From contig JACQVL010000069.1 in assembly GCA_016209865.1 (NCBI GenBank), positions 1-23,341 of the forward strand: a stretch of DNA of 23,341 nt, in the 5' to 3' direction. The DNA comes from Candidatus Latescibacterota bacterium (GTDB lineage Bacteria > JAAXHH01 > JACQVL01). Under the pieces are notes generated by a model, which made no database searches, had not been told where the DNA came from, and was given only the letters and a program-made list of their open reading frames with translations. The stretch's first letter is position 1, and each line of letters begins with the position of its first letter. The position numbers and the translations under genes are program-made. Shown here one piece after another: positions 1,393-22,264 of this stretch.

Positions 1393-1605
1393 AGTGGTCG
1401 GTGGTCGGACAAGAGCAGTGACGAGTGACAAGTGACGAGTGACGAGAAAAAATCCGTAATCGGTTGTCATTCCCGCGAAAGCGGGAATCCATGTCTGGGA
1501 CAGTATACGAGCGCGAAGACAGAGCGGCAAGTTAAAAATCGGTCGGACAGTTTTCCCTTGACTTCCTCTCTTGGGGCGGGTAGACTTGGTGGTCGGTGGT
1601 CGGTG
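1393..1605. repeat. Heptad-repeat element with dRS3-like core (locus a)
   Basis: The space between the divergent CoA-transferase and mazG starts is filled by period-7 words. AGTGGTC and GGTGGTC run at 1393-1406, four AGTGACG/AGTGACA units at 1417-1444, and two GGTGGTC units plus a partial at 1588-1605. Between the left and right arrays lies the perfect palindrome ATTCCC-N8-GGGAAT at 1469-1488 followed by ATCCATG. Unlike most other loci here, the GGTGGTC arms are direct, not inverted. The left array ends 16 nt from the CoA-transferase start codon. The promoters of both genes must lie in or beside it, but I see no convincing -35/-10 pair. Confidence 0.85.
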
Positions 1606-1632
1606 AAAAGATAGAGTGAAAGGCATGCGTAC

Positions 1633-2424
1633 ATGACACCATTTGAACGATTGGTCAACATTATGGCGACGCTCCGGGCTGAGCACGGATGTCCGTGGGA
1701 CCGGCAGCAGACGCACGAGTCGATCCGTCCCTACCTGATCGAGGAGGCGTACGAAGTGCTGGACGCGATCGATCAGCGCGATGATACGCGGTTTCGGGAA
1801 GAACTGGGCGACCTGCTTCTTCAGATCGTGTTTCATGCCCAGATGGCGCGTGAGGGCGGCCGGTTCACGATCGACGACCTCATCACCACCGTCGTGGAGA
1901 AGCTGATCCGCCGGCATCCGCATGTGTTCGGGTCTGTGGAGGCGAAGACGGCCGACCAGGTCCTGATCAACTGGGAGAAGATTAAACATACAGAAGGAGG
2001 ACAGCAACGGAAATCGGTCTTAGAGGGCCTTCCCAACCATCTTCCGGCCTTGCTCAAAGCGTACCGGGTGCAGGAGAAAGTGGCTCGTGTGGGGTTCGAC
2101 TGGAGTGCGGTGGATGACGTGTTCAAGAAGGTACAGGAGGAAATCACAGAATTCCGGGATGCGTATGCTGTCTGGGATCGGGAGAGACTGGAAGACGAGT
2201 TTGGCGACCTGCTGTTTTCCTTAGTCAACCTGGCCCGGCACATCAGGATTAGCCCGGAGGATGCGCTCCGGCGGACGATCCAGAGATTCGTCGACCGGTT
2301 TCAGTACATCGAAGAGACGTTGAGGCTCAACGGCGAGAGTCTCGACAATGCCTCTCTCGAACGGATGGACGCGCTCTGGGAAGAGGCCAAGCGTCGGGAA
2401 GAAGAAAGGGGAGAAAAGGGGTGA
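1633..2424 (+). CDS. mazG: MazG nucleoside triphosphate pyrophosphohydrolase
   Basis: This 263-residue cytoplasmic enzyme hydrolyses NTPs and dNTPs to NMP and pyrophosphate, a house-cleaning and starvation-response function. It has the full two-domain architecture. The first MazG domain has E37-E38-x-x-E41 with E56-E57-x-x-D60, and the second has E169-E170-x-x-E173 with E187-x-E189-x-x-D192. These are the EExxE and ExxD metal-binding pairs. The N-terminal FERLVNIMATLRAEHGCPWD is diagnostic. ATG 1633 is preceded by GAAAGG about 9 nt upstream. The neighbours suggest a single-gene transcript. The C-terminal tail is lysine/glutamate-rich. Confidence 0.95.
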   Translation: MTPFERLVNIMATLRAEHGCPWDRQQTHESIRPYLIEEAYEVLDAIDQRDDTRFREELGDLLLQIVFHAQMAREGGRFTIDDLITTVVEKLIRRHPHVFGSVEAKTADQVLINWEKIKHTEGGQQRKSVLEGLPNHLPALLKAYRVQEKVARVGFDWSAVDDVFKKVQEEITEFRDAYAVWDRERLEDEFGDLLFSLVNLARHIRISPEDALRRTIQRFVDRFQYIEETLRLNGESLDNASLERMDALWEEAKRREEERGEKG

Positions 2425-2450
2425 GGGTACTCTTCACCGCTCGCATTGTC

Positions 2451-2484
2451 CAGCCGACACGAGGGGCACATGTCGTGTCGGTTG
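2451..2484. terminator. Candidate bidirectional hairpin between mazG and higA
   Basis: Arms at 2451-2462 and 2473-2484 can pair over 12 bp with one G-T wobble around a 10-nt loop (core arms CCGACACGA and TCGTGTCGG). It sits between two convergent genes, 27 nt after the mazG stop and 57 nt after the antitoxin stop, which is where a shared terminator would be. Neither strand has a following T-tract, so classic intrinsic termination is uncertain. Confidence 0.45.
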
Positions 2485-2540
2485 GGATGGATTGGCGGCA
2501 CTCTGCGATGCACCATCGCCCAGCCCCGGCTCTTGACGCA

Positions 2541-2885
2541 TCACGAGGAGACGGGTGTGGCTTCGCCCAGCGGGACAAAAGCGATGGTCAGCCGATGATG
2601 GAGCGCCGCGGCGATCCGCCGGAGCATCGACAGCGAATGCCCCTCATAGTCGGCCTGTTCCAACCGACTGATCACGGAGGCGGTCGTCCCAATGCGTTCG
2701 GCGAGTTCCCGTTGGGTCAGCCCCGCGGCCGTCCGCAGCGCATAGATTTGCTCGGCGACCTCCAGGTTCGTCTCCTCTTCGGCGAGCATCGCTTCCAGAT
2801 CGGGATGCCCCTGGATGAAGCGTCGGGACAGGATCTCGACGGCATCTGAGGTCTTCCGGGATTTGGACCGCTTTCCCTGGGTCAT
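2541..2885 (-). CDS. higA: HigA-type XRE antitoxin
   Basis: This 114-residue helix-turn-helix protein is the likely antitoxin and autorepressor of the adjacent HigB-like toxin. The XRE domain spans about residues 43-98. The recognition region is GLTQRELAERIGTTASVISRLE, the usual Q-x-x-L-A-x-x-x-G-x-x-x-x-x-I-S-R-x-E pattern. The lysine-rich N-terminus (about 1-40) is an extension that may contact the toxin. ATG 2885 lies 3 nt after the toxin stop codon. A GGAGGAG motif lies inside the toxin's 3' end, a little far (about 14 nt), so translation is probably coupled. Toxin-first order is characteristic of higBA. The role is inferred from family and context. Confidence 0.85.
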   Translation of the reverse strand: MTQGKRSKSRKTSDAVEILSRRFIQGHPDLEAMLAEEETNLEVAEQIYALRTAAGLTQRELAERIGTTASVISRLEQADYEGHSLSMLRRIAAALHHRLTIAFVPLGEATPVSS

Positions 2886-2888
2886 AAT

Positions 2889-3263
2889 TTACGTCAACTC
2901 CTCCGTATAGGTATGCCTGCCCGGATCCTGAACAAATTTCTGGCGTCGCCTGATCGCTGTGTCAATCGCATGAGGGGGCACGCGATGTTCTTTAATCACC
3001 CCGTGAGCCAGCACCGCGACAGTCCGGCCATGAAAGAAATACAGGATGCGATAGTGGACACCCTGGAGATCAACCCGGAGTTCGTAAATCTCATCCCGGA
3101 GATAGTCCGCTTCCGGCCGTCGCAGCTCATGTCCTCGTTCTCGCAGCCGCTTGATGCGGGCGAGACATTTGACGCGGGCTTTCGGGCTTAATTCCTCCAT
3201 CCAGTCCAAGATCGGCACCGTCCCATCCTCGTCCTGGTACAAGACCACCGTGCCTACCGGCAT
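2889..3263 (-). CDS. higB: HigB-like toxin, phage Gp49-like (RelE superfamily)
   Basis: This 124-residue protein resembles phage-derived Gp49-like/HigB toxins, mRNA interferases that act on translating ribosomes. Recognisable parts are the N-terminal strand and helix (GTVPILDWMEELSPKARVKC), the basic helix RIKRLRERGHELRRPEADYL, and the core strands DEIYELRVDLQGVHYRILYF followed by FHGRTVAVLAHGVIKE. The YELR-x(6)-YRILYF signature is typical of the family. ATG 3263 has a very strong Shine-Dalgarno (AGGAGGGGAGGA) just upstream. It heads a two-gene operon with the XRE antitoxin. Toxicity is inferred; the C-terminus is about 15 residues longer than in many homologues. Confidence 0.85.
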   Translation of the reverse strand: MPVGTVVLYQDEDGTVPILDWMEELSPKARVKCLARIKRLRERGHELRRPEADYLRDEIYELRVDLQGVHYRILYFFHGRTVAVLAHGVIKEHRVPPHAIDTAIRRRQKFVQDPGRHTYTEELT

Positions 3264-3294
3264 TCCTCCCCTCCTGAATCAGGCATTCATTGAA

Positions 3295-3325
3295 GCAATA
3301 TTAGCAAAATTGCGAACTCTGTCAA
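3295..3325 (-). promoter_or_regulatory. higBA promoter with operator-like palindrome
   Basis: On the minus strand there is a consensus -35 TTGACA (3325-3320), a 16-nt spacer and a -10 TAATAT (3303-3298). It lies about 35 nt upstream of the toxin ATG. An inverted repeat GCAAT-N9-ATTGC at 3295-3313 overlaps the -10 box and is a natural candidate operator for the HigA protein. Box match and position are seen directly; the regulatory role is inference from how type II toxin-antitoxin operons behave. Confidence 0.7.
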
Positions 3326-3599
3326 GGAAAAGATAGCCCCAGGAGGAGCGGCGTTTAACAATCCGTCCCGATGTGAACAAGTGTTACCTTGATTTCGTGA
3401 CCGGGTTGTTGAACTCGGAAATTACGGGGTTACGCGGATGTTGACAAGGGGAATCGGTTGGTAAGAAAAACGCTCCGTTGTGGACCCAACCGGGCTTCCT
3501 CGGTCATCCCTCCATTCTGTCCACCGGCATCCCCAGCCTACTCACCGTAAGTGGCCCGAGAAGGTGTTGAGCCAATGGGAACGAGCGGGCGTAGTCGGA
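3326..3599. other. Gene-free spacer
   Basis: I see no supported coding sequence, hairpin or repeat between the toxin promoter and the FlgD-like remnant. The stretch is of mixed composition. It may be decayed sequence belonging to the remnant next to it. Confidence 0.4.
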
Positions 3600-3899
3600 T
3601 CAGGATGACGACAGCGTGTCGTGATCCGTCCGGTCAGACGATGGAACAGGAAGGTGTTCGTCAGGCGTCAATGCTGTGATTGACGCCGATGCGGACAGAA
3701 GACGACAGATCTCAGAATCTTGGCTCACTTCACTTAGGAGCATCTTTTTTGTGCGGGTGAATACCGTCTTGTTTCCCTCTTGAATAGCGAGGTGGTAGAA
3801 GTACACCCCGCTGGTCACCCGCTGCTGCGCCGCATTCCGGCTGTTCCACTCGACCTGATAGAACCCGTCGCTCCTGCCGACGTTCTCGTGACGGCTCAC
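3600..3899 (-). pseudogene. Fragment of a FlgD-Ig/secretion-tail C-terminal domain protein
   Basis: This 99-residue reading frame contains a good match to the end of FlgD-like Ig domains found at the C-termini of large secreted proteins: GFYQVEWNSRNAAQQRVTSG, then VYFYHLAIQEGNKTVFTRTK, then KMLL at about residues 12-55. In full-length proteins several hundred residues precede this, and they are absent here. The last 45 residues after KMLL look unrelated and are probably read-through. A GTG at 3899 overlaps the SpoIIE phosphatase stop as GTGA, so the frame could be translated by coupling, but I think this is a relic. A short functional gene cannot be excluded. Confidence 0.5.
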
Positions 3900-5227
3900 C
3901 CCGTCTCCGCGAATGTCCGGTCGTCTCGTTTGATCACCAGCATGGTCAGATCATCGTATTGGGGTCTTGGCTCTGCAAACCTCTGGACGGTGTCCTGGAC
4001 GACCTCGAGGAGTGCGGTCGTGGTCAGGTGCCGATGGGTCGTCACGAGGCGGAGGAGTTGCTCCAGCCCGAATTCTTCCTCTCGCTCATTCAGCGCTTCG
4101 GTCACGCCATCGGTGAAGAGCAGTAAAACAGCCCCGGGCTCCACCAAGACCTGGCCTTCGTCGTAGGGGACTTCCGCCTCCACCCCGAGCACTAACCCCC
4201 CCCTGTCCAGGAACTGACACGTGCCCCCGGGGCCTAGCAAGATGGGAGCATTGTGTCCCGCATTGACATACGTAAGAGCCCCCGTGGGCAGGTCTAACAC
4301 GCCGTAGAAGAGCGTCACGAAGGTGGCCGTGGACGTGCTGCCACACATCAGCCGGTTGACCGTCGAGACCAGGCGGGACGGCGTGGGATCGTTGCGGCTC
4401 TGCACCCGCATATAGGCTTGGGTCGCCGCCATCAGGAGCGCAGCGGGAATCCCTTTGTCCGAGACATCGCCCAGCGCCAAGCCCAGCGACTGCTCCCCGA
4501 AGCGGAACATCTCATAATAATCGCCCCCCACCTCCTCGCAGGGCATATTACACGCGGCAATGGCGTATTCCCCGATCGTGGCGTCGATGCGCGGCAAAAG
4601 CTGTTGTTGAATCTCCCGTGCGATCTGCAACTCGTGTTCCAGGCGTCGCTTGGCCAGAACTGCTTTGTAAAGTAAGGCGTTTTCGATCGCCACCGCGGCA
4701 TGCGACGACATCGCCTCTAAGAACCGCTCGTCGTCCTCGGTGAAGAAGCCCTCCTGTTTGTTCAGCACCTGAAGCACCCCGATAATCTTGCCAGCGCGGT
4801 TCCGGATGGGCAGACAGAGGACCGTGCGGGTGCGATAGCCCGTGGTCTCGTCAATCCCTGCATAAAATCGGGGGTCTTCATAGGCATTCTGAATGTTGAT
4901 GGTCTCACCGGTTTGGGCCACAGCCCCGGCGAATCCTTTCCCGAGAGGGAGGCGAATGTTGAGCCATTCCTCCCCTTCGAGCACCTTGGACCAAATCTCC
5001 CCGCGGACCTCATCCACCAGGTATAAGGTGCCGCGCTCGGCGTTGAGGTTGTGCGTCGCGAGCGCGACGATGAGGCTGAGCAACCGATCCAGATCCAACG
5101 TGGCGTTCATCATCTTGCTGGCCTCGAGGAGCGCTTGCAACTGGTCAACACCCACGCGATCCGTGCTGCGGCGTAGAGAGCTCCGGCGGTCTGCGTCTTG
5201 CCGGCGTTCCTCCTCCGCGGTCTTCAT
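3896..5227 (-). CDS. GAF-domain PP2C-type (SpoIIE/RsbU-like) serine phosphatase
   Basis: This 443-residue cytoplasmic regulator probably dephosphorylates the STAS protein encoded just upstream. A GAF sensor domain covers about residues 44-186, a helical linker with AREIQQQLLP about 190-212, and a SpoIIE/PP2C domain about 220-435. Metal-binding aspartates are visible at D236 (GGDYY), D254 (GDVSDKG), D373 (FTDGVTE) and D425/D426 (YDDLTML). I chose ATG 5227 because a perfect AAGGAGGT lies 9 nt upstream; the frame stays open to 5320 but those residues look non-coding. The gap to the STAS gene is 31 nt, so the two are co-transcribed. The GAF ligand is unknown. No kinase (RsbW-like) gene is seen in the window, so it must be elsewhere if the switch is complete. 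Confidence 0.92.
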   Translation of the reverse strand: MKTAEEERRQDADRRSSLRRSTDRVGVDQLQALLEASKMMNATLDLDRLLSLIVALATHNLNAERGTLYLVDEVRGEIWSKVLEGEEWLNIRLPLGKGFAGAVAQTGETINIQNAYEDPRFYAGIDETTGYRTRTVLCLPIRNRAGKIIGVLQVLNKQEGFFTEDDERFLEAMSSHAAVAIENALLYKAVLAKRRLEHELQIAREIQQQLLPRIDATIGEYAIAACNMPCEEVGGDYYEMFRFGEQSLGLALGDVSDKGIPAALLMAATQAYMRVQSRNDPTPSRLVSTVNRLMCGSTSTATFVTLFYGVLDLPTGALTYVNAGHNAPILLGPGGTCQFLDRGGLVLGVEAEVPYDEGQVLVEPGAVLLLFTDGVTEALNEREEEFGLEQLLRLVTTHRHLTTTALLEVVQDTVQRFAEPRPQYDDLTMLVIKRDDRTFAETG

Positions 5228-5258
5228 GGCCAGCCCACCTCCTTCCCCTTGCTCACCC

Positions 5259-5621
5259 TCAGCCCTCAGCCCCAGCCTGAGCGGTTTCAAAACTGGCGAT
5301 GGCCTGCTCCACACTGTCATACGACTTGAACAGGCGAGCTAAGCGGGTCCGGGTGAGGATGCGGTGGAGAGGCTCGGAGACATTGGCAAGCTTGAGTTCC
5401 CCCCTCTGATCCCGGACCGCCCGATGGATGGTGATCAAGAGACTTAACTGGGCACTGGTGACTCGCGTGACAGATGCCAGGTCGATGATAAACTTCGAGA
5501 GCTGTTCTTCCTGAGCTAGCCGCAGCACCTCCCGGTGGCACGCCGCGAAATCCCCCTGGCCTTGGGGGGGGCCTAAGAAGAGAATAGCCACCGCCCCTTT
5601 CCGTTGACTTAAGACCGCCAT
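5259..5621 (-). CDS. STAS-domain anti-sigma factor antagonist
   Basis: This 120-residue single STAS domain is of the SpoIIAA/RsbV type. In partner switching the unphosphorylated form binds an anti-sigma kinase and frees the sigma factor. The pattern FIIDLASVTRVTSAQLSLL aligns with the family's phosphorylation loop; Ser56 (TSAQL) falls on the conserved phosphoserine. The usual D-S-S-G is T-S-A-Q here, a divergent loop. ATG 5621 is favoured over ATG 5636 because GGGAGGGG lies about 4-5 nt upstream of it. It is followed 31 nt later by the SpoIIE phosphatase, its likely partner. Whether the target is a sigma factor or another output such as a diguanylate cyclase cannot be told. Confidence 0.88.
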   Translation of the reverse strand: MAVLSQRKGAVAILFLGPPQGQGDFAACHREVLRLAQEEQLSKFIIDLASVTRVTSAQLSLLITIHRAVRDQRGELKLANVSEPLHRILTRTRLARLFKSYDSVEQAIASFETAQAGAEG

Positions 5622-5815
5622 CTCGTCCCCTCCCATCTATTAGGGGTAAAGGTAGCGAGCGTGTCACCAACCGCAATACCCTTTGGATTCCTTTGCTCAC
5701 GAAGGGTTTGTAGCGCTATCTTCACTCAGGGCCTATGTTACATCAGGGTGTCGAAATCGCCGGACAAAAACGCTCCGGTCGCAAAATGAGACGAAAGACG
5801 ACAGGAGCGTGCCGC

Positions 5816-5983
5816 TCAAAAAACGTTATGAAAGATAATGGAAGAGGCTGGACGACGACGCCGGCATGCGCCGTGATCATCGCCTTCATCAGGGTGTCGT
5901 GGCAGATCACTGCCGCACGCAGGGTCTCGGTATTCCCAGGGTATGGTGCTGCCTGCGAGATCAGGGAAGATGAGGCTCTGCAT
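5816..5983 (-). CDS. Possible small protein of unknown function
   Basis: A 55-residue frame begins at ATG 5983 with MQSLIFPDLAGSTIPWEYRD. It is preceded at 4-nt spacing by GGAGGGGG (5988-5995) and, further up, by a promoter-like pair. I recognise no family, no signal peptide and no membrane segment. The second half is rich in Asp, His and Arg (DEGDDHGACRRRR). The translation signals are better than those of most spurious frames, but the codon choice is unconvincing. It could be a decayed gene start or chance. Confidence 0.25.
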   Translation of the reverse strand: MQSLIFPDLAGSTIPWEYRDPACGSDLPRHPDEGDDHGACRRRRPASSIIFHNVF

Positions 5984-6051
5984 GATGCCCCCTCCGCGGC
6001 TGATCGAACATACACGGATGCAGCAAAGAGGAAGGGAGTGTGTAAAGCGAA

Positions 6052-6079
6052 AAAATAGGAAACGAGGAGTGAAAGTCAA
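6052..6079 (-). promoter_or_regulatory. Promoter-like -35/-10 pair
   Basis: On the minus strand TTGACT (6079-6074) is followed after 16 nt by TATTTT (6057-6052). It would read toward the small frame at 5983 and possibly the STAS/phosphatase operon beyond it. Match quality is fair; function is inferred only from the boxes. Confidence 0.35.
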
Positions 6080-6233
6080 GAGCTTTTTCTGATTAGACTC
6101 TTTCCAGTGAGTCCCGAAGGACGTATAACGGGGAGACTGTCAACCACGAATGCGGCACTACAACAAGGAACGAGAGAGGAACGTGGTGTCTTTTTCCATG
6201 GAAGGCGACACCATCTGTCTGTCGACCACCGCT

Positions 6234-7163
6234 TCAGTACACCTCCAGATCATGACCGGAAACGACCTTGCCGTCGTAGCCCTGCCGGATTTCTTTCAGT
6301 AATTCTTCCTCCGTCGAGCTCCAGATCAACTGATGGTAGAGGATCAGCAAGCCCGGCCTCGTTTGCGCGGCGATCGCGGCCAGTTCCGCAGATGAAGTGT
6401 GAAAGTTAGCGTGGTACCGCTGCCATTCCGGCGGGCGTGTCTGGAAGCCGGCCTGCGAGTACACCTCATGGATCAGTACATCGCACCCCTTCGCCTGTTC
6501 GATGAGGCCGGGACTCGGAACGGCGTCCCCTGAGATCACGATCGTCCGGTCGGGCGTCTCGAAGCGGTACCCGAACGCCTGCGGCCAGGAGCCGTGCTTG
6601 ACCGGGAACGCTCTCACCGTGACGCGCTCATCCCGGTACACGATGCCCGGCGTGATCTCGTGCGCGTTGACCTTGTAGCCTTCCGTATTGGCGGGCTCCA
6701 GGCCGTTGATGCGGATGTCGATGTCCTGCTGGTATGCCTTCAGGAGGTGATCGGTCATCGCGGTGACGCCCGGCGGCCCGTAGACTTCAAGCGGCACGTT
6801 CCGTCCCAGCACCCACGGCGTAAAGATGAGATCAGGCAGGCCGACCGTATGGTCGGAATGGAGGTGAGTGATGAAGACCCGTTTGAGGTTGGGCGCGTCT
6901 AACCCCTTGACCCCTGCTCGAAACGCCGCCGCGGCCCGCCGCACCACGCCGGGGCCGCAATCGACCAGGTACGAGGTCCCGTCGACGACGATCGCCACCG
7001 CCGGGCCGGAACGATCCGGGTCTGCGTTCGGCGTTCCCGTCCCGAGGAGGACGATCTGAGTGCGTGTGAGAGGATTGGCCTGAATCGCGGGAGTCGTGGC
7101 ATGGACGCGGTCTCCCGCCAGCCCAGTGATCGTGATCAGACAGACCAGTACGACGCGGTTCAT
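6234..7163 (-). CDS. Exported metallo-beta-lactamase-fold hydrolase (RNase Z/arylsulfatase-like)
   Basis: This 309-residue MBL-fold metallohydrolase belongs to the RNase Z/AtsA-like branch. Metal ligands are H100-x-H102-x-D104-H105 (THLHSDHTVGLPDL), H190 (PVKHG), D213 (SGDAV) and H277 (YHQL). The strand QIVLLGTGTPNADPDRSGPA is typical of the branch. The first 22 residues (MNRVVLVCLITITGLAGDRV) look like a signal peptide ending near HA-TT, so the protein probably acts in the periplasm, which argues against tRNA processing and for a small-molecule ester or phosphodiester substrate. ATG 7163 is chosen because the signal peptide starts there; the purine-rich AGAAGG abuts it, so the ribosome site is weak. 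It appears to be a single gene. An IS remnant lies 36 nt upstream of its start. Confidence 0.85.
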   Translation of the reverse strand: MNRVVLVCLITITGLAGDRVHATTPAIQANPLTRTQIVLLGTGTPNADPDRSGPAVAIVVDGTSYLVDCGPGVVRRAAAAFRAGVKGLDAPNLKRVFITHLHSDHTVGLPDLIFTPWVLGRNVPLEVYGPPGVTAMTDHLLKAYQQDIDIRINGLEPANTEGYKVNAHEITPGIVYRDERVTVRAFPVKHGSWPQAFGYRFETPDRTIVISGDAVPSPGLIEQAKGCDVLIHEVYSQAGFQTRPPEWQRYHANFHTSSAELAAIAAQTRPGLLILYHQLIWSSTEEELLKEIRQGYDGKVVSGHDLEVY

Positions 7164-7198
7164 CCTTCTGCGTTCATGGAACGATTCCCGTGTGGAAA

Positions 7199-7218
7199 CC
7201 TCGGACTTCAGTCCGGGG
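7199..7218 (+). repeat. Left hairpin of the IS remnant
   Basis: CCTCGGAC pairs with GTCCGGGG around the loop TTCA (7207-7210). The third pair is a T-G wobble, exactly as in the right hairpin. It could be the left-end recognition hairpin or the right end of a lost neighbouring copy. It also lies 36 nt upstream of the MBL gene start, in its leader. Confidence 0.7.
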
Positions 7219-8016
7219 AGAAACACGACCAGAAGAAAACCATTGCTCTCCTACAAGGGCTTGGATCGGGTCTCGGTCCTGTCGCTGCGTGGACGGCTGA
7301 CCATCCCGTTTGTCTGCGGAACCTCTCACCATGCCCGGCTCTCCCGTATCCGAGGCGAAGCCGACTTGATCGAACGGGATGGGATGTGGTTCCTGCTCCA
7401 GACGGTCGAATTGCCGGAACCACCGCCGACCGATGTGGCCGACTATCTCGGTGTCGATCTGGGCATCGTCAATCTGGCGACCGACTCGGACGGCACGGCA
7501 CACAGCGGCAAGACGGTTCACGGTCTTCGGCGACGACATCACCGGCTCCGACAACGGCTTCAATCGAAGCAGACCAAAAGCGCCAAGCGTTTGCTCAAGC
7601 AACGACGCCGCAAGGAAACCCGGTTTCAACGCGATGTCAATCACTGCCTCAGTAAGACGCTGGTCACGACGGCTCAACGCACCGGACGCGGACTTGCCCT
7701 GGAAGACCTCACCGGCATCCGCACCCGGATCAGGGCTCAGAAGCCGCAGAGACGTGTCCAGTCCAGTTGGGCCTTTACTCAGCTCCGCCAATTTATCGAG
7801 TACAAGGCGAAGCTGGCGGGTGTGCCCCTCGTCCTCGTTGATCCCCGGAATACCTCGCGCACCTGTCCGGTCTGTGGACACTGTGAGAAAGCCAACCGGA
7901 AGACCCAAGTCTTGTTCTCCTGTGTGCGGTGCTTCTTCTCTGGAAACGCCGATACCATCGCGGCGGAGATGATCCGCCGGGCCGCTGTCAACCGGCCAGA
8001 CGTGGACGCCGCGTAA
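7219..8016 (+). pseudogene. tnpB: 5'-truncated tnpB (IS605 OrfB-type RNA-guided nuclease)
   Basis: About 265 residues match the C-terminal two thirds of TnpB, usually 370-400 residues. The part before LDRVSVLSLRGRLTIPF, including the N-terminal helix-turn-helix region, is missing. What remains includes the beta strands ending ADLIERDGMWFLLQTVELP, RuvC-I GVDLGIVNLAT (Asp codon 7456), RuvC-II LALEDLTGIRTR (Glu codon 7702), a zinc ribbon TCPVCG...SCVRC, and RuvC-III GNADTIAAEMI (Asp codon 7951). All three acidic catalytic residues are intact. The frame is open upstream through the left hairpin (a GTG at 7192 is in frame), so a shortened protein could be made, but I see no ribosome site. The 3' end and right hairpin would normally encode the guide RNA scaffold. 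Confidence 0.85.
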
Positions 8017-8031
8017 GCGGTGAGCTACAAG

Positions 8032-8051
8032 CATCTGACTTCAGTCAGGTG
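8032..8051 (+). repeat. Right hairpin of the IS remnant
   Basis: CATCTGAC pairs with GTCAGGTG around TTCA (8040-8043), with a T-G wobble at the third pair. It follows the tnpB stop by 16 nt, the usual place of the right-end hairpin. On the minus strand it holds the stop codon (8047-8045) of the neighbouring glycosyltransferase. It could also act as a terminator for either gene. Confidence 0.75.
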
Positions 8052-10343: not shown

Positions 10344-10427
10344 CGAATCACCACCCTCGTTTCGGCCGCGGGGGCTCCCTCTCTATTTTCTACGAATGAA
10401 CGTGCGATCTGGATTTGTGGGACACGT

Positions 10428-13475: not shown

Positions 13476-13490
13476 AGAAGTTTGGGAAAG

Positions 13491-13617
13491 ACAGTGGTCA
13501 GTGGTCAGTAAAAACCAAACCGCAGACAAGCTGGTGATTTTCCCGTACCATGTACTGCGTCATTCCCTCGAAAGCGGGAAGTCCATGGATTAGCTCTTAC
13601 TGACCACTGACCACTGA
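13491..13617. repeat. Heptad foldback element with dRS3-like core (locus b)
   Basis: The left arm (13492-13511) and right arm (13597-13616) are exact reverse complements over 20 nt, built of the word AGTGGTC. The right arm ends at the base before the stop codon (13618-13620) of the dehydratase/reductase gene, and the left arm ends 16 nt before the sbcC start. Between them lies a decayed copy of the ATTCCC-N8-GGGAA core (13562-13580) followed by GTCCATGG. It fills nearly the whole space between the two genes, and in mRNA would form a stem of at least 20 bp. Confidence 0.9.
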
Positions 13618-14601
13618 CTACTGTCCCTGTACATGCTCACGCCAGTAGTTGAGGCATTCTTCGATCGTCTCCTGCCAGGTGTAGGTCGGGGCCCATCCGG
13701 TGGCCTGGCGGAATTTGGTGCTATCGCCGATCAGGACGGGCACGTCGGATGGGCGCATCCGGCTGGGGTCCTCCCTGGTGGTGATCGTGACGTCGCTCAG
13801 GCTGAGCAGATGGTCGAGCATATCACGAATACGCGGGGAGTTCCCGGAGGCGATGTTGTAGGCCTCTCCCCATTCGCAGTGCCCGTCGAGGCTCATCCAG
13901 TAGGCGCGCACGATGTCCTTCACGTTCGTCATATCACGGATGGGATCGAGGTTGCCGTGGGAGATGACGGGTTCGCGGAGGCCGCGTTCGATCTGGGCGA
14001 TCTGAACGCTGAACGAGGCTTCGGAGAACCCTTCATGCCGCCGGGCGCCGCTGTGGTTGAACGCCCGGGTCCGGACGATCTTCATCCCATAGCTTTTGGC
14101 ATACTGCCATCCGAGCACATCCTGCGCCACTTTACTGCACCCGTAGGGGGAGAGCGGACGCAGCGGGTTCGTTTCTTTCACCGGAATCTCATGCGCGTGG
14201 ACGAGACCATATTCCTCGCTGCTCCCGCAGATCTGGATTCGGCATTCCAGACAGGCTTCCCGGATGGCTTCGAACAGGTTCACCTGCCCGACGGCGTTCG
14301 TGACCAGACACTCGGCGGGGGCCAGCCACGAGGTCGGGACGTGGGACATCGCCGCCGTGTGAATACAGCGTTCGGGTTGATACTTTCTCAGGATCGTGTA
14401 CAGGCTATGGGTGTCGGTCAAATCTCCGATTTCCCAGAGCACCTTCGGGTGGTGGAGCAGGTGGGTGACATTCTTCAGGTCCGACCGGCGGCGGCGCATC
14501 GCCACGATCTCGTAATCCGGATGTTCGGCGAGGATGTAGTCGATCATCGTGCTGCCGACCATCCCGGTCGCCCCGGTGACAAGGACGGATGACATGGACA
14601 T
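13618..14601 (-). CDS. NAD(P)-dependent sugar-nucleotide dehydratase/reductase (GMD/RMD-like SDR)
   Basis: This 327-residue extended short-chain dehydrogenase probably converts a GDP- or other NDP-sugar for surface polysaccharide synthesis. It has the Rossmann motif GATGMVG (10-16), S127-S128-E129 in GSSEEYG, and the catalytic Y153-x-x-x-K157 (SPYGCSK). The segments IHTAAMSHVPTSW and RTRAFNHSGARRHE recall GDP-mannose 4,6-dehydratase and GDP-4-keto-6-deoxymannose reductase; I cannot decide between them. Its ATG at 14601 overlaps the sbcD stop as TAATG, with GGAGG a few bases upstream, so translation is coupled to sbcD. A second ATG at 14595 is possible. Its 3' end runs straight into a heptad repeat. 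Confidence 0.85.
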   Translation of the reverse strand: MSMSSVLVTGATGMVGSTMIDYILAEHPDYEIVAMRRRRSDLKNVTHLLHHPKVLWEIGDLTDTHSLYTILRKYQPERCIHTAAMSHVPTSWLAPAECLVTNAVGQVNLFEAIREACLECRIQICGSSEEYGLVHAHEIPVKETNPLRPLSPYGCSKVAQDVLGWQYAKSYGMKIVRTRAFNHSGARRHEGFSEASFSVQIAQIERGLREPVISHGNLDPIRDMTNVKDIVRAYWMSLDGHCEWGEAYNIASGNSPRIRDMLDHLLSLSDVTITTREDPSRMRPSDVPVLIGDSTKFRQATGWAPTYTWQETIEECLNYWREHVQGQ

Positions 14602-15851: not shown

Positions 15852-15860
15852 GGAAAAACC

Positions 15861-15997
15861 AGGGGTCAGGGGTCAGGATTCAGGGGTCAGGAAAGGAATA
15901 GGTCACAAGTCATAAGGTCACAGGTCGGAAGGTCGCAAGCCGGAATCTGACCTTCGACCTTTATGTTTTTCCTGACCCCCGACCCCTGACCCCTCAG
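15861..15997. repeat. Nested heptad foldback element (locus c)
   Basis: The outer left arm repeats AGGGGTC (15861-15892) and the outer right arm is its reverse complement (15970-15994). They match at 22 of 25 positions over 15868-15892. An inner set of AGGTCAC/AGGTCGG words (15900-15936) folds on TGACCTTCGACCT (15948-15961), giving a second hairpin in the first. The right arm ends 2 nt before the oxidoreductase stop (16000-16002), and the left arm begins about 9 nt before the sbcD start. There is no ATTCCC-type core. Confidence 0.85.
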
Positions 15998-15999
15998 TT

Positions 16000-17202: not shown

Positions 17203-17384
17203 GCGTTCCTCCGTTCGTTCCGTCGTGTGAGGCTTTTGTCCGGTGTCCTGCCGCGTCCCTAACGTCCAGAATATGTTGAGTATACGACGTGGCAAAAAGG
17301 CTGTCAAATGAATTTTCAAGACTGCATGGGCAGATGGACGGTGAAGAGGCAAAAGCAGTCGATCTGTCTTTTTGGGTTTCCCGT

Positions 17385-17419
17385 ACCCCTAACCCCGAAT
17401 CCCGAACCCCGAATCCCCT
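17385..17419. repeat. Single-arm heptad array (locus d)
   Basis: Five consecutive 7-nt units run without a break: ACCCCTA, ACCCCGA, ATCCCGA, ACCCCGA, ATCCCCT. It lies in the divergent space between the oxidoreductase and the EamA transporter, 17 nt before the nearer EamA ATG. I see no inverted partner nearby. The same words in the same orientation occur 1.5 kb away at locus f. Confidence 0.85.
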
Positions 17420-17453
17420 TTCGCCTTTTCGCCCCATGCTTTATTTTGTGCCC

Positions 17454-18317
17454 ATGCGTCTCTCCCCCTATCTCGGCCTGGCGTTCGGCGTCGCGTGTAC
17501 CGCTGGCGCGGCCATCTTGATCCGTTTAACGGATGCGCCATCCCTGGTCATCGCCGCGTACCGACTGACGATGGCCTCTGTCCTGCTCCTGCCGGTCGCG
17601 CTCCTGCGGTCGGGCGAGGAACGAAGACGCCTGACGGGGCGGGATTGGCGCTGGATGGCGGCATCTGGCGGGCTGTTGGCCGTCCATTTCGCGTCGTGGA
17701 TCTCCTCCCTCGCCTACACGTCTGTCGCCAGCTCGGTCGTGCTCGTCACCACCTACCCCCTCTTCGTCGGCCTGGGAGCACACTGGCTGATGCGCGAGCG
17801 GCTCTCATCCGGGATGTTAGGCGGCATCCTGGTGGCCGTCATCGGCGGAGGGATCATCGGGTACGGGGATTTCAGCTCCGGGCGCGATGCGCTCTTCGGG
17901 GATGCCCTGGCCGTCGTGGGCGCGTTCTCCGGGGGCGGGTATTTGATGATCGGCCGGCATCTGCGCCGCCGGTTGTCGTTGATGACCTACATCGCGGTCG
18001 TCTACTCGACGGCAGCGGTCATCTTAGCGGTCATCGCCGTGGGGGCGGGCTACCCGGTGACCGGGTATTCCCGGATGACCTACATGCTGCTCCTGGCGCT
18101 GGCGGTCGGGCCTCAACTCCTCGGCCATTCTTCCCTCAACTGGGCGCTGAAGTACCTGTCCGCCGCGTTCGTCAGCGTGAGCGCCCTGGGGGAACCGGTC
18201 GGCGCGACCGTGCTGGCGGCGGTTGTGCTCGGAGAGCCCGTCCCACCGTTGAAGCTCGCTGGCGGCGTGTTCGTCCTGACGGGTATTTATCTGACGTTGC
18301 GGGAAGAACAACGTTAA
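17454..18317 (+). CDS. EamA/DMT-family transporter
   Basis: This 287-residue inner-membrane protein has about ten hydrophobic segments in two EamA repeats (about residues 5-140 and 150-285). Examples are YLGLAFGVACTAGAAILIRL near the start and LGEPVGATVLAAVVLGEPVP followed by PLKLAGGVFVLTGIYLTL at the end; the GEP-x(3)-A-x(4)-GE motif is typical of the second repeat. Such proteins export or import metabolites such as amino acids, and the substrate cannot be predicted. ATG 17454 (MRLSPYLG) is my choice; ATG 17436 adds six residues. Neither has a ribosome site, as a heptad array occupies the leader. Its stop codon lies inside the octad repeat shared with the convergent BCCP gene. Confidence 0.9.
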   Translation: MRLSPYLGLAFGVACTAGAAILIRLTDAPSLVIAAYRLTMASVLLLPVALLRSGEERRRLTGRDWRWMAASGGLLAVHFASWISSLAYTSVASSVVLVTTYPLFVGLGAHWLMRERLSSGMLGGILVAVIGGGIIGYGDFSSGRDALFGDALAVVGAFSGGGYLMIGRHLRRRLSLMTYIAVVYSTAAVILAVIAVGAGYPVTGYSRMTYMLLLALAVGPQLLGHSSLNWALKYLSAAFVSVSALGEPVGATVLAAVVLGEPVPPLKLAGGVFVLTGIYLTLREEQR

Positions 18318-18394
18318 CACGTTGGAACGTTAGAACGTTTACACGTTCACCCATGAACAACGTTCAAACGTTAGAACGTTCTAACGTGCCAACG
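18311..18394. repeat. Octad foldback element between convergent genes (locus e)
   Basis: Five 8-nt units of the form ACGTTNNN run at 18311-18350 (ending AAC, GGA, AGA, TAC, CAC). After six bases, units of the form NNNACGTT run at 18357-18394. The arms are inverted, and AACGTT is itself a palindrome. The EamA stop TAA (18315-18317) is part of the first unit, and the last unit ends at the base before the BCCP stop (18395). It may serve as a shared terminator, though there is no T-tract. Period 8 differs from the 7 seen elsewhere. Confidence 0.9.
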
Positions 18395-18901
18395 CTATCT
18401 TTCTAACACCACCAGCACATCCCCCTTATTCACCGCATCCCCTGGCTGGACTCGCACCTCTTTCACCCGCCCGTCCGCGTGGGCCCGCAGCTCGTTCTCC
18501 ATCTTCATCGCTTCGATGATGACGACGCCCTGTCCGGCGGTGACGGCATCTCCGACGGCGACTTCGACCGCGAGCACCCGGCCGGGCATCGGGGCGGTGA
18601 TCGTTTGAGGAGCCGTCCGGTGATGCCGCTTCACCGCGCCACGGAGCCGGGCGACAGAGGCGGATTCGACGGCCACGTCGTAGACAACTCCATCGATCAT
18701 CACCCGCCAGACGTCCGAGACCTCCAGCACCGTCGCCGTGTACGACCGCCCATCGATCAGGAGCGAGTAGGTGGCCGCTGAATCGAGGGGGACGAGGTCG
18801 ACCTGCATGGGGACGCCGGTGATGTCAACCCGCGTCGAGCCGGGCTGGTCCTCAACGTCCACGGTAAACGAGTTGGCTCCCAGATTTGCCAGGTATTTCA
18901 T
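18395..18901 (-). CDS. Biotin carboxyl carrier protein of acyl-CoA carboxylase (BT-BCCP)
   Basis: This 168-residue protein carries carboxybiotin between the biotin carboxylase and the carboxyltransferase encoded upstream. The C-terminal biotinyl domain (about 98-168) has the E130-A-M-K133-M site, where Lys133 would be biotinylated, with the flanking APMPGRV and GDAV turns. Residues 1-90 form a beta-rich region (YSLLIDGRSYTATV, WRVMIDGVVYDVAVE) like the BT domain that tethers BCCP in propionyl-CoA carboxylase alpha chains. ATG 18901 has AGAGG about 6 nt upstream; the frame upstream (to 18982) is the heptad array and the accC end in another frame. It is the last gene of the carboxylase operon. 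Confidence 0.92.
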   Translation of the reverse strand: MKYLANLGANSFTVDVEDQPGSTRVDITGVPMQVDLVPLDSAATYSLLIDGRSYTATVLEVSDVWRVMIDGVVYDVAVESASVARLRGAVKRHHRTAPQTITAPMPGRVLAVEVAVGDAVTAGQGVVIIEAMKMENELRAHADGRVKEVRVQPGDAVNKGDVLVVLER

Positions 18902-18915
18902 CGATACCTCTTTCC

Positions 18916-18945
18916 TTCCCGAACCCCTAATCCCGAACCCCGAGC
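18916..18945. repeat. Single-arm heptad array (locus f)
   Basis: Four 7-nt units (TTCCCGA, ACCCCTA, ATCCCGA, ACCCCGA) plus a partial GC fill the 44-nt gap between the biotin carboxylase stop (18946-18948) and the BCCP start. Read on the gene strand the array begins right after the stop codon. The words are shared with locus d, in the same orientation. There is no inverted partner. Confidence 0.85.
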
Positions 18946-20439
18946 CTACCGAAGGGCCGCCCGCCGTCCGGCCAGCTTCCACGGGCTGTGGCCGGGGGCG
19001 CTGCTCGATGAGACCGGGGTCCGCATCGTCTGCTGGTGCCGGTGTGCCATGATGGCGGCGAAGGCGGCCGCGACCAGGGGCTGGTGATCGGTCTCAGCCG
19101 GTGGGGTCATCTGGTGGAGAAAGCTCGTCGAATACTGGCCTGACACGAACCGGGGGTCAGCCAGGGCGCGCAGATGGAAGGGAATCGTCGTCTTGATGCC
19201 CCCGATGTCGTACTCGGCAAGGGCGCGTCGCATCCGGGCGATCGCTTCGTCCCGGTCCGCCGCCCAGACGATCAGCTTGGCGATGAGCGGGTCATAGTAG
19301 ATCGGAACTTCATACCCGCGATACATCCCGCTGTCGAGACGGACGCCCGGGCCGCCGGGCTCGGTCAGCCGGGTGATCAGGCCGATGGACGGGATGAAGT
19401 TGTCGTCCGGGTCTTCGGCGGAGACCCGGCATTCGATCGCCGCGCCCGTGAACCGGATCGACGCTTGCGTGAACGGGAGGGGTTCGCCGGCCGCGATGCG
19501 GATCTGTGCTTTGACCAGGTCGAGGCCGGTGCGCATCTCCGTGACCGGATGCTCCACCTGCAGCCTGGTGTTCATCTCTAAGAAATAGAAATGGCGATCC
19601 TGATCGACGATGAACTCGATCGTCCCCGCGTTCGTGTACCCGACCGCTTCTGCGGCGCGGACAGCCGCTTTACCCATCGCGCGCCGCATCGCGTCGTCGA
19701 GCGCGCACGACGGGGATTCTTCGATCAGTTTCTGATGCCGGCGCTGCACGGAACATTCCCGTTCGCCCAGATGGACGACGTGGCCGTGGGCATCCGCGAG
19801 CACCTGGAACTCCACATGCCGGGGCTCGCTCAGACACTTCTCGACGTAGACCGTCGGGTCGCCGAATGCAGACTGCGCCTCCGACCGCGCGGCCCGGAGG
19901 GCGCCGGCCAGTTCCCCCTCGTCCTGCACGACGCGCATCCCTTTTCCGCCCCCGCCCATCGCCGCTTTGATGAGCACCGGATACCCGATGGATCGGGCCA
20001 CCCGGCCGGCCTCCGTGTCGTCCGCTAACCCTTCGTCGGTGCCGGGGACGACGGGCACGTGCGCGGCTCGCATCGTCCGCCGCGCCGCGGTCTTATCCCC
20101 CATCGCCCGGATGGCGGGACCGGACGGCCCGATGAAAGTCAGTCCCGCATCCGCGCAGAGGTCGGCGAAGTCCGCGTTCTCGGCGAGAAACCCGTAGCCG
20201 GGATGGATGGCCTCCGCCCCGGCTCGACGAGCCACCTCGACCAGTGTTTCGCCGCGGAGATAACTTTCTGTCGAGGGCGGTAGGCCGATGGAGTACGCTT
20301 CATCCGCGTAGCGGACGTGCAGGGCGCTCCGGTCCGCCTCAGAGAACACGGCGACGGCCGCGATGTCCATCTCATGACACGACCGGATGATCCGGACGGC
20401 GATCTCCCCCCGGTTGGCAATTAATATCTTCCTAAACAT
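18946..20439 (-). CDS. accC: Biotin carboxylase subunit of acyl-CoA carboxylase
   Basis: This 497-residue ATP-grasp enzyme carboxylates biotin on the BCCP with ATP and bicarbonate. The N-terminus FRKILIANRGEIAVRIIRSC, the glycine loop GGGGKGM (162-168), EVEFQV-type strand RHVEFQVLAD, and EMNTRLQVEHPVTE (288-301, Arg292 catalytic) are all present. It exceeds bacterial AccC (about 450) by some 50 residues; the tail ends in HSPWKLAGRR, which resembles the start of the BT domain in fused PccA/MccA chains. ATG 20439 is fixed by homology; the nearest ribosome-site match (AAAGG) is about 13 nt away. It lies between the carboxyltransferase and BCCP genes in one operon, with repeats in both gaps. Confidence 0.95.
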   Translation of the reverse strand: MFRKILIANRGEIAVRIIRSCHEMDIAAVAVFSEADRSALHVRYADEAYSIGLPPSTESYLRGETLVEVARRAGAEAIHPGYGFLAENADFADLCADAGLTFIGPSGPAIRAMGDKTAARRTMRAAHVPVVPGTDEGLADDTEAGRVARSIGYPVLIKAAMGGGGKGMRVVQDEGELAGALRAARSEAQSAFGDPTVYVEKCLSEPRHVEFQVLADAHGHVVHLGERECSVQRRHQKLIEESPSCALDDAMRRAMGKAAVRAAEAVGYTNAGTIEFIVDQDRHFYFLEMNTRLQVEHPVTEMRTGLDLVKAQIRIAAGEPLPFTQASIRFTGAAIECRVSAEDPDDNFIPSIGLITRLTEPGGPGVRLDSGMYRGYEVPIYYDPLIAKLIVWAADRDEAIARMRRALAEYDIGGIKTTIPFHLRALADPRFVSGQYSTSFLHQMTPPAETDHQPLVAAAFAAIMAHRHQQTMRTPVSSSSAPGHSPWKLAGRRAALR

Positions 20440-20464
20440 ACTTTAGGAAAGTCCTTTCTCATCT

Positions 20465-20547
20465 AAGGACAAAAGACAAAGTACGAAGGACGAAAAAGCA
20501 AGTCGATTCTTTTCACTTTCGTCCTTTGTCCTTCGTATTTCGTCCTT
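20465..20547. repeat. Heptad foldback element (locus g)
   Basis: Left arm 20465-20495 and right arm 20517-20547 are 31 nt each and are reverse complements at 26 of 31 positions. They are built of words such as AAGGACG, AAGGACA and AAGTACG. The loop is 21 nt and has no ATTCCC-type core. The right arm ends at the base before the carboxyltransferase stop (20548-20550). It lies inside an operon, so the stem would form in the mRNA between two subunit genes and could affect their relative output. Confidence 0.9.
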
Positions 20548-22098
20548 TCATAATGGAATATTCCCGTGCTTCTTCGGGGGGTTCGTATCCCGCTTGTTCT
20601 TCAGCATCTCCAGGGCGGCGATCAGACGGGGACGAGTCTCCTGTGGTTGGATGACCTCATCAATGTAGCCCATCCGCGCGGCGATGTACGGGTTGTCGAA
20701 TTTCTCGCGGAACTCCGCGATCAGGCGCTGCCGGGTCGCCTCCGGGTCCTTCTCTTGAGCGATCTCGCGCCGGTAGAGGATGTTGACCGACCCTTCCGGC
20801 CCCATGACCGCAAACTGCGCGGTCGGCCAGGCGTAATTGATGTCCGCCCGGATGTGTTTGCTGTTCATCACACAGTACGCCCCCCCGTACGCCTTGCGGG
20901 TCACGACGGTCAGCCGGGGGACGGTGCTCTCGCAGAACGCGTACAGGAGCTTGGCGCCCTCTTTGATCACCCCGCCGTGCTCCTGACTGACGCCGGGGAG
21001 GAAGCCGGGAACGTCCTCGAACACGACGAGCGGGAGGTTGAACGCGTCGCAGAACCGGACGAACCGGGCCCCCTTGACGGAGGAGCGGATGTCGAGCACC
21101 CCCGCTAAGGACGCGGGCTGGTTGGCCACGATGCCCACCGGCTTCCCGTTTAGCCGGGCAAACCCGATGACGAGGTTGTCGGCAAACTCTTTCTGAACCT
21201 CCATGAAGTCGCCGTGATCGATGACCCGTGTGATGACATCCCGGATGTCGTACGGTTTATTCGGGTCATCCGGGACGATGCGGGTCAGCGCCTCGTCCAT
21301 CCGGTTCGGGTCGTCCGTCGACTCGACGGCGGGCGGGTCTTCCAGGTTGTTCGACGGCAGGAAGGCGAGGAGGCGTTTCACGTCGAGGAGGCAGGTCGCT
21401 TCGTCGGCCGCCGCAAAATGGGCGACCCCGCTCACCGAGTTATGGGTGTGCGCCCCGCCTAACTCCTCGAACGTCACCTCTTCATGCGTGACCGACCGGA
21501 TGACGTCCGGGCCGGTGATGAACATGTAGCTTGTATCCTCGACCATGAAGACAAAATCCGTGATGGCGGGAGAATAGACCGCGCCCCCCGCGCAGGGGCC
21601 CATGATGACGGAGATTTGCGGGATAACTCCGGACGCGAGGACGTTGCGCAGAAAAATATCGGCGTACCCGGCCAGACTGATCACGCCCTCCTGGATGCGC
21701 GCCCCGCCGGAGTCCTTCAGGCCGATGAGCGGCGCCCCGTTCTTCATGGCCAGGTCCATCACCTTGCAGATTTTCTCTCCATACGCCAGGCCGAGCGACC
21801 CGCCGAACACGGTGAAGTCTTCGGCGATGACGTAGACGAGCCGGCCGCCGATCGTGCCGTAACCGGTCACCACCCCGTCGCCGAGAATCCGGCGGTCCCC
21901 CATCCCGAAGTCGTCGCACCGGTGGGTGACGAACGCGCCCAGTTCTTGAAAACTGCCTTCGTCGACAAGGAAGGCGACGCGCTCGCGGGCGGTCCATTTC
22001 CCCGCCTGGTGCTGTTTTTTGATGCGCTCGCTTCCCCCGCCCAGACTGGCTTCCTGGCGGAGAGCTTCCACACGTTTCATCTTCTCGACCATCGACAT
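20548..22098 (-). CDS. pccB: Acyl-CoA (propionyl-CoA-type) carboxyltransferase subunit
   Basis: This 516-residue crotonase-fold carboxyltransferase moves CO2 from carboxybiotin to an acyl-CoA, most likely propionyl- or acetyl-CoA. Family features are ARERVAFLVDEGSFQELGAF, the oxyanion-hole segments KDSGGARIQEGV (128-139) and SQEHGGVIKEGAKLLYAF (371-388), and AYGGAYCVMNSKHIRAD (403-419). It is as long as PccB. Cys409 stands where Asp marks propionyl-CoA enzymes and Ile acetyl-CoA enzymes in actinobacteria, so the substrate is open. Start 22098 has GGAGAGGGG about 7 nt upstream; ATG 22092 is possible. It is the first gene of the carboxylase operon. A methylmalonyl-CoA decarboxylase alpha subunit is less likely because a biotin carboxylase is present. 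Confidence 0.93.
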   Translation of the reverse strand: MSMVEKMKRVEALRQEASLGGGSERIKKQHQAGKWTARERVAFLVDEGSFQELGAFVTHRCDDFGMGDRRILGDGVVTGYGTIGGRLVYVIAEDFTVFGGSLGLAYGEKICKVMDLAMKNGAPLIGLKDSGGARIQEGVISLAGYADIFLRNVLASGVIPQISVIMGPCAGGAVYSPAITDFVFMVEDTSYMFITGPDVIRSVTHEEVTFEELGGAHTHNSVSGVAHFAAADEATCLLDVKRLLAFLPSNNLEDPPAVESTDDPNRMDEALTRIVPDDPNKPYDIRDVITRVIDHGDFMEVQKEFADNLVIGFARLNGKPVGIVANQPASLAGVLDIRSSVKGARFVRFCDAFNLPLVVFEDVPGFLPGVSQEHGGVIKEGAKLLYAFCESTVPRLTVVTRKAYGGAYCVMNSKHIRADINYAWPTAQFAVMGPEGSVNILYRREIAQEKDPEATRQRLIAEFREKFDNPYIAARMGYIDEVIQPQETRPRLIAALEMLKNKRDTNPPKKHGNIPL

Positions 22099-22115
22099 CG
22101 GACAACCCCTCTCCT

Positions 22116-22264
22116 ATTTTGGATTTTAGATTTTGGATTTTGGATTACTGGTCTGCGGCAAGTGCTTAGACCATCGAGCAAACGCGATTCGGCTTTCATG
22201 GGTTAGTCCCGTGCGAGCAGGAATCCATTCTCCAACCCAAAATCCGAAATCCAAAATCCAAAAT
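22116..22264. repeat. Heptad foldback element with decayed dRS3-like core (locus h)
   Basis: The left arm (22116-22143) is four units of ATTTTGG or ATTTTAG. The right arm (22237-22264) is its reverse complement at 26 of 28 positions. Between them, at about 22205-22232, is TAGTCCC-GTGCGAGC-AGGAATCCATTC, a degraded copy of the ATTCCC-N8-GGGAATCCA core at locus a. The right arm ends at the base before the glycosyltransferase stop (22265-22267). The left arm ends 18 nt from the pccB start codon, leaving room only for its ribosome site. Confidence 0.9.

Follow-up and report, generated by a model that had tools for sequence, protein, structure and literature searches.

Mirrored heptad arrays with many words and one architecture at gene edges of a Candidatus Latescibacterota genome

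Inverted pairs of heptamer arrays are known from Xanthomonas, with 70-75 pairs per genome (Rehm et al., 2015, PMC4692102), and the preference for four units in the GGGAATC and GGGGA(C/T)T repeats of Xanthomonas and Nostoc has been ascribed to quadruplex formation (PMC4692102). The heptamers of Xanthomonas, Nostoc, and Beggiatoaceae have so far been treated word by word and explained by properties of the word (quadruplexes, protein binding). Here, we analyze the arrays of near-identical 7-nt units (heptads) in eight intergenic spaces (a to h) of contig JACQVL010000069.1 from a Candidatus Latescibacterota bacterium (GCA_016209865.1). The contig, at its full length of 23,341 nt, is called the window; it is C356 among the 356 contigs of a 3.75 Mb genome, which is estimated to be 83% complete. 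Many unrelated words follow one set of rules for length, polarity, and placement, and words are swapped at fixed sites, which points to a common process that acts on the architecture.

Abundance and word lexicon

Periods were scored as self-similarity at every spacing, with dinucleotide shuffles as control. The strict score finds six period-7 segments in the window and none in the shuffles, and Tandem Repeats Finder reports arrays in all eight spaces but one, so that the intergenic arrays described in the first-pass annotation are real. The array in the eighth space (f) is degenerate, was read by eye, and falls under the period-score cut-off. Among periods 3 to 30, only the multiple 14 and, at one place, 15 are enriched in the window besides 7.

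The genome-wide sample consists of 69 contigs (636 kb, window included) which were not picked for arrays. It holds 116 arrays of period 7, compared to 17 of period 8 and at most 8 for any other period that is not a multiple of 7. The arrays are thus not rare, and extrapolation to the whole genome gives roughly 680. A slightly lower score cut-off results in 143 arrays, of which 110 lie in intergenic and 15 in coding sequence. Arrays are most frequent in the gaps of tandem gene pairs, which are preferred over divergent gaps. As 7-nt tandem arrays in mainly intergenic positions, they fall under the definition of heptameric short tandem repeats. One dominant word per genome, a trait of the published heptamer cases (not a strict definition), is not seen here: the 143 arrays comprise 31 words, most of which fall into nine families (at least nine in all). 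The commonest word, AGTGACG, accounts for 41 of the 143 arrays; smaller families are CGGTGGT, ATTTTGG, AGGGGTC, AAGGACG, AGTGAAG, AGTGGTC, CGGGGTT, AAATGGG, and AGTGGGC. A neighbor one mutation away is present for 27 of the 31 words, compared to 13 in shuffled words.

The words of the window had been taken to be unique to their loci. They are not locus-specific and recur across the genome. That the arrays are not copies of one single element holds true, given at least nine word families; within a family, though, they look like dispersed copies of about 31 nt. For space e, an 8-nt unit had been reported. Its period is indeed 8, but its word is AACGTTNN, and space e belongs to a genome-wide class which is separate from the heptads and recurs at about a dozen loci (e.g., L034 3458, L037 2149, L161 3147, L204 5138, and L207 8765). 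Unlike the heptads, these arrays keep the palindromic core of AACGTTNN largely constant, with two variable spacer bases.

Samples from seven genomes of the same phylum (261 kb) gave a single match, which is of low complexity, and a two-copy AGTGGTC pattern that is present in this genome was not found in 15 other genomes of the phylum. Because of this near-absence, the arrays look lineage-specific within the phylum.

Pairing, polarity, and phase of the arms

In the unbiased sample, same-word pairs within 400 nt are nearly always inverted (35 inverted vs. 2 direct). In a larger set of pairs, biased by the addition of contigs picked for AGTGGTC, the G-richer word is the 5' one in 46 of 47 pairs. 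This G-first polarity is identical when read from either strand and is also found in convergent (4/4) and divergent gaps (3/3). Moreover, the G-rich strand reads away from the nearest gene in 134 of 155 gap arrays (P = 2e-21). For arrays that follow this edge rule, the median distance is 4 nt to a stop codon and 19 nt to a start codon; start codons are approximate, as genes were called with a simple dicodon model. Both traits of the Xanthomonas/Nostoc type (G-rich strand near the 5' neighbor gene; inverted pairs) are therefore present.

Mirrored arms had been attributed to the window as a whole, which is correct only for spaces b, c, e, g, and h (Table 1). Spaces d and f have a single C-rich arm each, and space a carries two same-strand GGTGGTC arrays and one AGTGACG array. 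The RNA folds of all five mirrored spaces are better than 200 of 200 shuffles (z from -5.4 to -7.9). Rfam gave nothing above the gathering score anywhere in the window.

The arrays generally have 3-4 units, are phase-locked, and almost never exceed five units. Among the 63 AGTGACG arrays, AG or AGT forms the end of 58 and AGTGACG the start of 53, and a single array has five units; in the other word families, the ends are similarly fixed and the inner border is rich in A. The same multi-unit haplotypes are encountered at unrelated loci; unit by unit, the seventh base reads, for instance, G-A-G-G (six loci) or G-C-G-G (five loci). Across loci, the variant unit is mostly at position 2, a bias that can be inflated by the trimming of terminal variant units; the haplotype pattern search is free of this. 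Fixed end phase, capped unit number, and common haplotypes together favor the copying of a ready-made unit of about 31 nt over free slippage. The two arms of a locus resemble each other more closely than they resemble same-word arms from elsewhere, with P = 0.008 in this genome and P = 0.002 in an acidobacterium, which indicates that they share variants.

The accD-accC junction offers a nearly empty site for comparison. In the window, the gap is 108 nt long and is filled by the hairpin of space g, while it has about 11 nt in most of 14 same-order relatives; one of these, L003, has a gap of about 57 nt and no array. On the simplest reading, the hairpin would have been gained in this lineage. 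The same junction bears mirrored heptads in the Gemmatimonadetes locus L103 and, repeatedly, in Caldilineales; mirrored heptads are also recurrent at the hslV-hslU gap of Acidobacteria (L231-L260 and L261-L290 cover hslV-hslU and accD-accC).

Table 1. Repeat arrays in the eight intergenic spaces of the window (z, RNA fold of the mirrored space).
Space	Array	Position	Strand	Basis and remarks
a	Outer array GTGGTCGGTGGTCGG, CGGTGGT family	1394..1408	+	Tandem Repeats Finder
a	AGTGACG-AGTGACA-AGTGACG-AGTGACG-AG	1417..1446	+	Tandem Repeats Finder, period score; four-unit haplotype recurs at five further sampled loci
a	Second GGTGGTC array, oriented like the outer array	1588..1605	+	Tandem Repeats Finder
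b	G-rich 5' arm CAGTGGTCAGTGGTCAGT, then AAAAACC	13492..13509	+	Tandem Repeats Finder, inverted-arm check
b	Mirrored 3' arm ACTGACCACTGACCACTGACTACTG	13599..13623	-	Tandem Repeats Finder, inverted-arm check; z -7.9
c	G-rich 5' arm, AGGGGTC	15860..15891	+	Tandem Repeats Finder, inverted-arm check
c	Mirrored 3' arm	15971..15994	-	Tandem Repeats Finder, inverted-arm check; z -6.8
d	Single array CCCCTAACCCCGAATCCCGAACCCCGAATCCC, a - strand member of the CGGGGTT family	17380..17417	-	Tandem Repeats Finder; 36 nt ahead of a + strand start codon (gene calls)
e	Mirrored AACGTTNN array of period 8, flanked by convergent genes	18303..18403	.	Tandem Repeats Finder, inverted-arm check; z -6.5
f	Single degenerate array of the CGGGGTT family, TTCCCGAACCCCTAATCCCGAACCCCGAG	18916..18944	-	Sequence read by eye; flanked by biotin-carboxylase and biotin-carrier genes
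g	5' arm AAGGACA/AAGGACG	20465..20495	+	Tandem Repeats Finder, inverted-arm check
g	Mirrored arm, directly 3' of the stop codon of the accD-like carboxyltransferase gene	20517..20547	-	Inverted-arm check; z -6.1
h	5' arm ATTTTGG-ATTTTAG-ATTTTGG-ATTTTGG-ATT	22116..22146	+	Tandem Repeats Finder, inverted-arm check
h	Mirrored 3' arm CCAAAAT	22234..22265	-	Tandem Repeats Finder, inverted-arm check; z -5.4

The loops of several array pairs, in the window and in the rest of the genome, contain a dispersed palindrome, GTCATTCCCGCGAAAGCGGGAATCC (1466-1492; degenerate at about 13559-13585 and 22203-22230). The window also has a contig-end inverted repeat at 1-60 (GTAGGGGCGATCC ... GGGGCGAATACAAGATTCGCCCCTAC) and, at 2541-3263 (-), a probable toxin-antitoxin pair consisting of a Gp49-like protein (HigB type) and a helix-turn-helix protein.

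Arrays in other phyla and word change at orthologous gaps

The outside comparison used 80 unrelated named loci from other phyla which had been gathered for another purpose. Period 7 is again on top (44 arrays, compared to 10-11 for periods 6 and 8), and inverted pairs again prevail (15 vs. 3 direct). Arrays occur in genomes labeled Acidobacteria, Armatimonadetes, and Gemmatimonadetes, some of them with the identical word AGTGGTC. The Armatimonadetes genome G037 is an exception, with 20 sampled arrays and not a single inverted pair among them.

Comparison of orthologous gaps, proposed in the first-pass annotation, was carried out in other phyla. In many species the array persists while its word changes, which bears out the view that period and architecture remain the same when the words differ. 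At the accD-accC gap in 30 species of Caldilineales, about a dozen words fill one stop-to-start space, with roughly 13 of the 30 species having no clear array. About eight different words are found at the hslV-hslU gap in Acidobacteria. The word CGGTAAT is common to the four Caldilineales species with at least 95% identical AccD; at 87-89% identity, the words already differ. As dozens of such orthologous gaps have been found, a common process can be tested directly by strain comparison.

The word of a locus was related to the genome lexicon in Caldilineales by genome-wide pattern counts of word doublets, with the reversed word as control. G104, with the gap word GTGATGC, has 212 exact GTGATGC doublets and 161 CGGTAAT doublets. 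In G141, with the gap word AGTGCGT, the reversed GTGATGC doublet, which happens to contain AGTGCGT, has 244 matches. These counts indicate that the word which newly occupies a locus can be frequent in the rest of that genome. In those opposite-strand pairs from the pattern searches that were checked by eye, the G-rich word comes first, and the Caldilineales gaps have 10 G-rich, 2 C-rich, and 3 even arrays in their first half, compared to 1, 8, and 3 in the second.

A reversed heptamer is an unsafe control in array-rich genomes. Besides the G141 case, the reversed AGTGGTC doublet matches real words in G042 (named locus L131), with 41 matches.

Origin of the arms and relation to described systems

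The explanation which we prefer, and to which we give about an even chance of being correct, is that the heptad arms are very small non-coding repeats, forming a class found throughout the genome, which has spread by copying of the genome's word pool. One arm comprises 3-4 phase-locked, G-rich, and C-poor heptamers, which amount to about 25-31 nt and are bordered by A-rich sequence. It opens just past a stop codon, and its reverse complement often closes just before the next start codon, so that the gap can fold into a long stem. Arms would be dispersed by copying from the genome's own word pool, template switching between inverted repeats could keep both arms of a locus alike, and slippage by 7 nt would merely adjust the copy number. 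In the most weakly supported step, selection would tolerate arms solely at gene edges and in G-first polarity because the RNA stem-loops that they form would do little harm or would help to keep neighboring genes apart.

Several points weigh against this explanation. The copying enzyme was not found, as the 83% complete genome has no match to the Y1/RAYT transposase (PF01797) or to the reverse transcriptase domain RVT_1 (PF00078). Pairing cannot be a general requirement, given the many lone arms. For selection at the RNA level, the mismatches conflict (58 G-U vs. 33 A-C in tandem gaps here, binomial P about 0.01; 8 vs. 15 in Caldilineales). The loops show no promoter enrichment (sense vs. antisense scores of 7.42 vs. 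7.39). Nor does the explanation account for the G-first polarity. Finally, copying is deduced mainly from one genome in fragmentary contigs, and trimming may have inflated the positional bias of the variant units.

Some further candidates were tried and rejected. The G-first polarity had prompted us to consider a telomerase-like or reverse-transcriptase origin, but RVT_1 gave no match in the genome at 83% completeness; mobility driven by RAYT was dropped as the search of the same genome gave no Y1 domain. A promoter in the loop, insulated by the arms, is not indicated by the sense and antisense scores, and the mismatch types gave conflicting results for pure RNA-stem selection. Avoidance of Rho loading as the cause of polarity fits poorly with the many lone C-rich arms near start codons.

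More tentatively, mirrored heptad arms may be widespread bacterial gene-boundary elements with a word-independent grammar (7-nt unit, about four units, G-first, stop-to-start), the word being repeatedly replaced from a genome-specific pool by copying without a hairpin transposase or reverse transcriptase. We regard this wider proposal as possible rather than probable.

The first-pass annotation had suggested, as an example, local slippage on a foldback stem. On this view, each locus would expand its own sequence in 7-nt steps, and template switching would keep the arms mirrored. This would agree with the enrichment of period 7 in the 80 named loci, with the covariation of arms within a locus, and with the change of words at orthologous sites. 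Hairpins can arise and persist through template switching (PMC8794818), and longer arrays exist in Caldilineales, where G103, for instance, has GTGATGC at least 13 times in a row. However, independent slippage would yield far more distinct words, and phase-locked ends, a unit number rarely above five, position-matched variant units in haplotypes common to unrelated loci, and a genome-wide word pool speak against arrays made from local sequence in this genome. We thus consider slippage an improbable origin, and the annotation's interpretation overall is partly supported.

Somewhat less probable still is that the arms are bidirectional transcription terminators or gene insulators, with the stem and not the word under selection. 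Strong folding of the mirrored spaces, moderate A-rich borders (read as T-runs past the 3' arm), the preference for tandem over divergent gaps, persistence of the architecture through word change, and the G-U excess in tandem gaps of this genome would fit. However, arms are also present between genes that are usually co-transcribed (e.g., accD-accC and hslV-hslU), Caldilineales lack the G-U excess, neither Gemmatimonadetes nor Caldilineales have A/T borders, and the loops are not enriched in promoters.

We consider it unlikely, and slightly more so than terminators, that the arms are REPIN/BIME-like mobile elements, that is, inverted pairs moved by a hairpin-acting transposase with lone arms as remnants. 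Inverted hairpin doublets dispersed in families are indeed found; together with constant polarity, lone arms, and intergenic sites, they fit the description of REPINs (PMC3116915). The window also encodes a TnpB-like protein (7096-8016, +) with OrfB_IS605 and Cas12f1-like TNB domains. The search for a linked Y1 (RAYT) transposase, though, gave no PF01797 match in this genome (83% complete), whereas the identical search is positive in two relatives whose samples are devoid of arrays. In addition, the arms are tandem heptamers, not palindromes, and there are many words per genome. G-quadruplexes built from four G-tracts, one per unit, as proposed for GGGNATC repeats, are very improbable: the four-unit preference and polarity are as in PMC4692102, and AGGGGTC and CGGGGTT could form quadruplexes, but AGTGACG and AGTGAAG have no G-tract per unit, and the commonest word, AGTGACG, keeps the 3-4 unit preference, polarity, and edge placement, so that the four-unit preference cannot in general stem from quadruplexes, and this family largely refutes them as a general explanation.

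Among described systems, the GGGAATC and GGGGA(C/T)T repeats of Xanthomonas and Nostoc (PMC4692102) are similar in being intergenic heptamers with a four-unit preference, the G-rich strand leading away from the nearest gene, and in forming inverted pairs which are scarce between divergent genes and mostly kept between orthologous genes. They differ in having one word type per genome, compared to at least nine families here, where words free of G-tracts obey identical rules; word replacement at orthologous sites is not described there. The P6b heptad stem of the Nostoc trnL intron (Kaasalainen et al., 2015, PMC4476775) is likewise mirrored, with word classes repeatedly replaced at one site; it is a single site in a group I intron, in contrast to hundreds of intergenic sites here. 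Mirrored arms are therefore not the new arrangement they had been thought to be, having been reported from both Xanthomonas and this intron. TAACTGA repeats of Beggiatoaceae, Cyanobacteria, and Bacteroidetes (MacGregor, 2015, PMC4679880) and the cyanobacterial short tandem repeats (STRR) are also abundant intergenic heptamer arrays near gene edges, scattered across phyla; TAACTGA, however, is one word, found in essentially direct repeats (one inverted case) and mostly upstream of start codons. REPINs and BIMEs (PMC3116915) are likewise extragenic, form hairpins from inverted pairs of constant polarity, leave lone remnants, and come in several families per genome, but they consist of palindromic units with a linked Y1 transposase, in place of heptamer arrays with no detectable Y1 transposase. 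A literature search that reached few subscription papers returned no account of multi-word lexicons or of cross-phylum word replacement at intergenic orthologous sites. Inverted heptamer pairs with G-first polarity, and a heptad stem with word replacement, are thus already known; the multi-word, multi-phylum form would be new.

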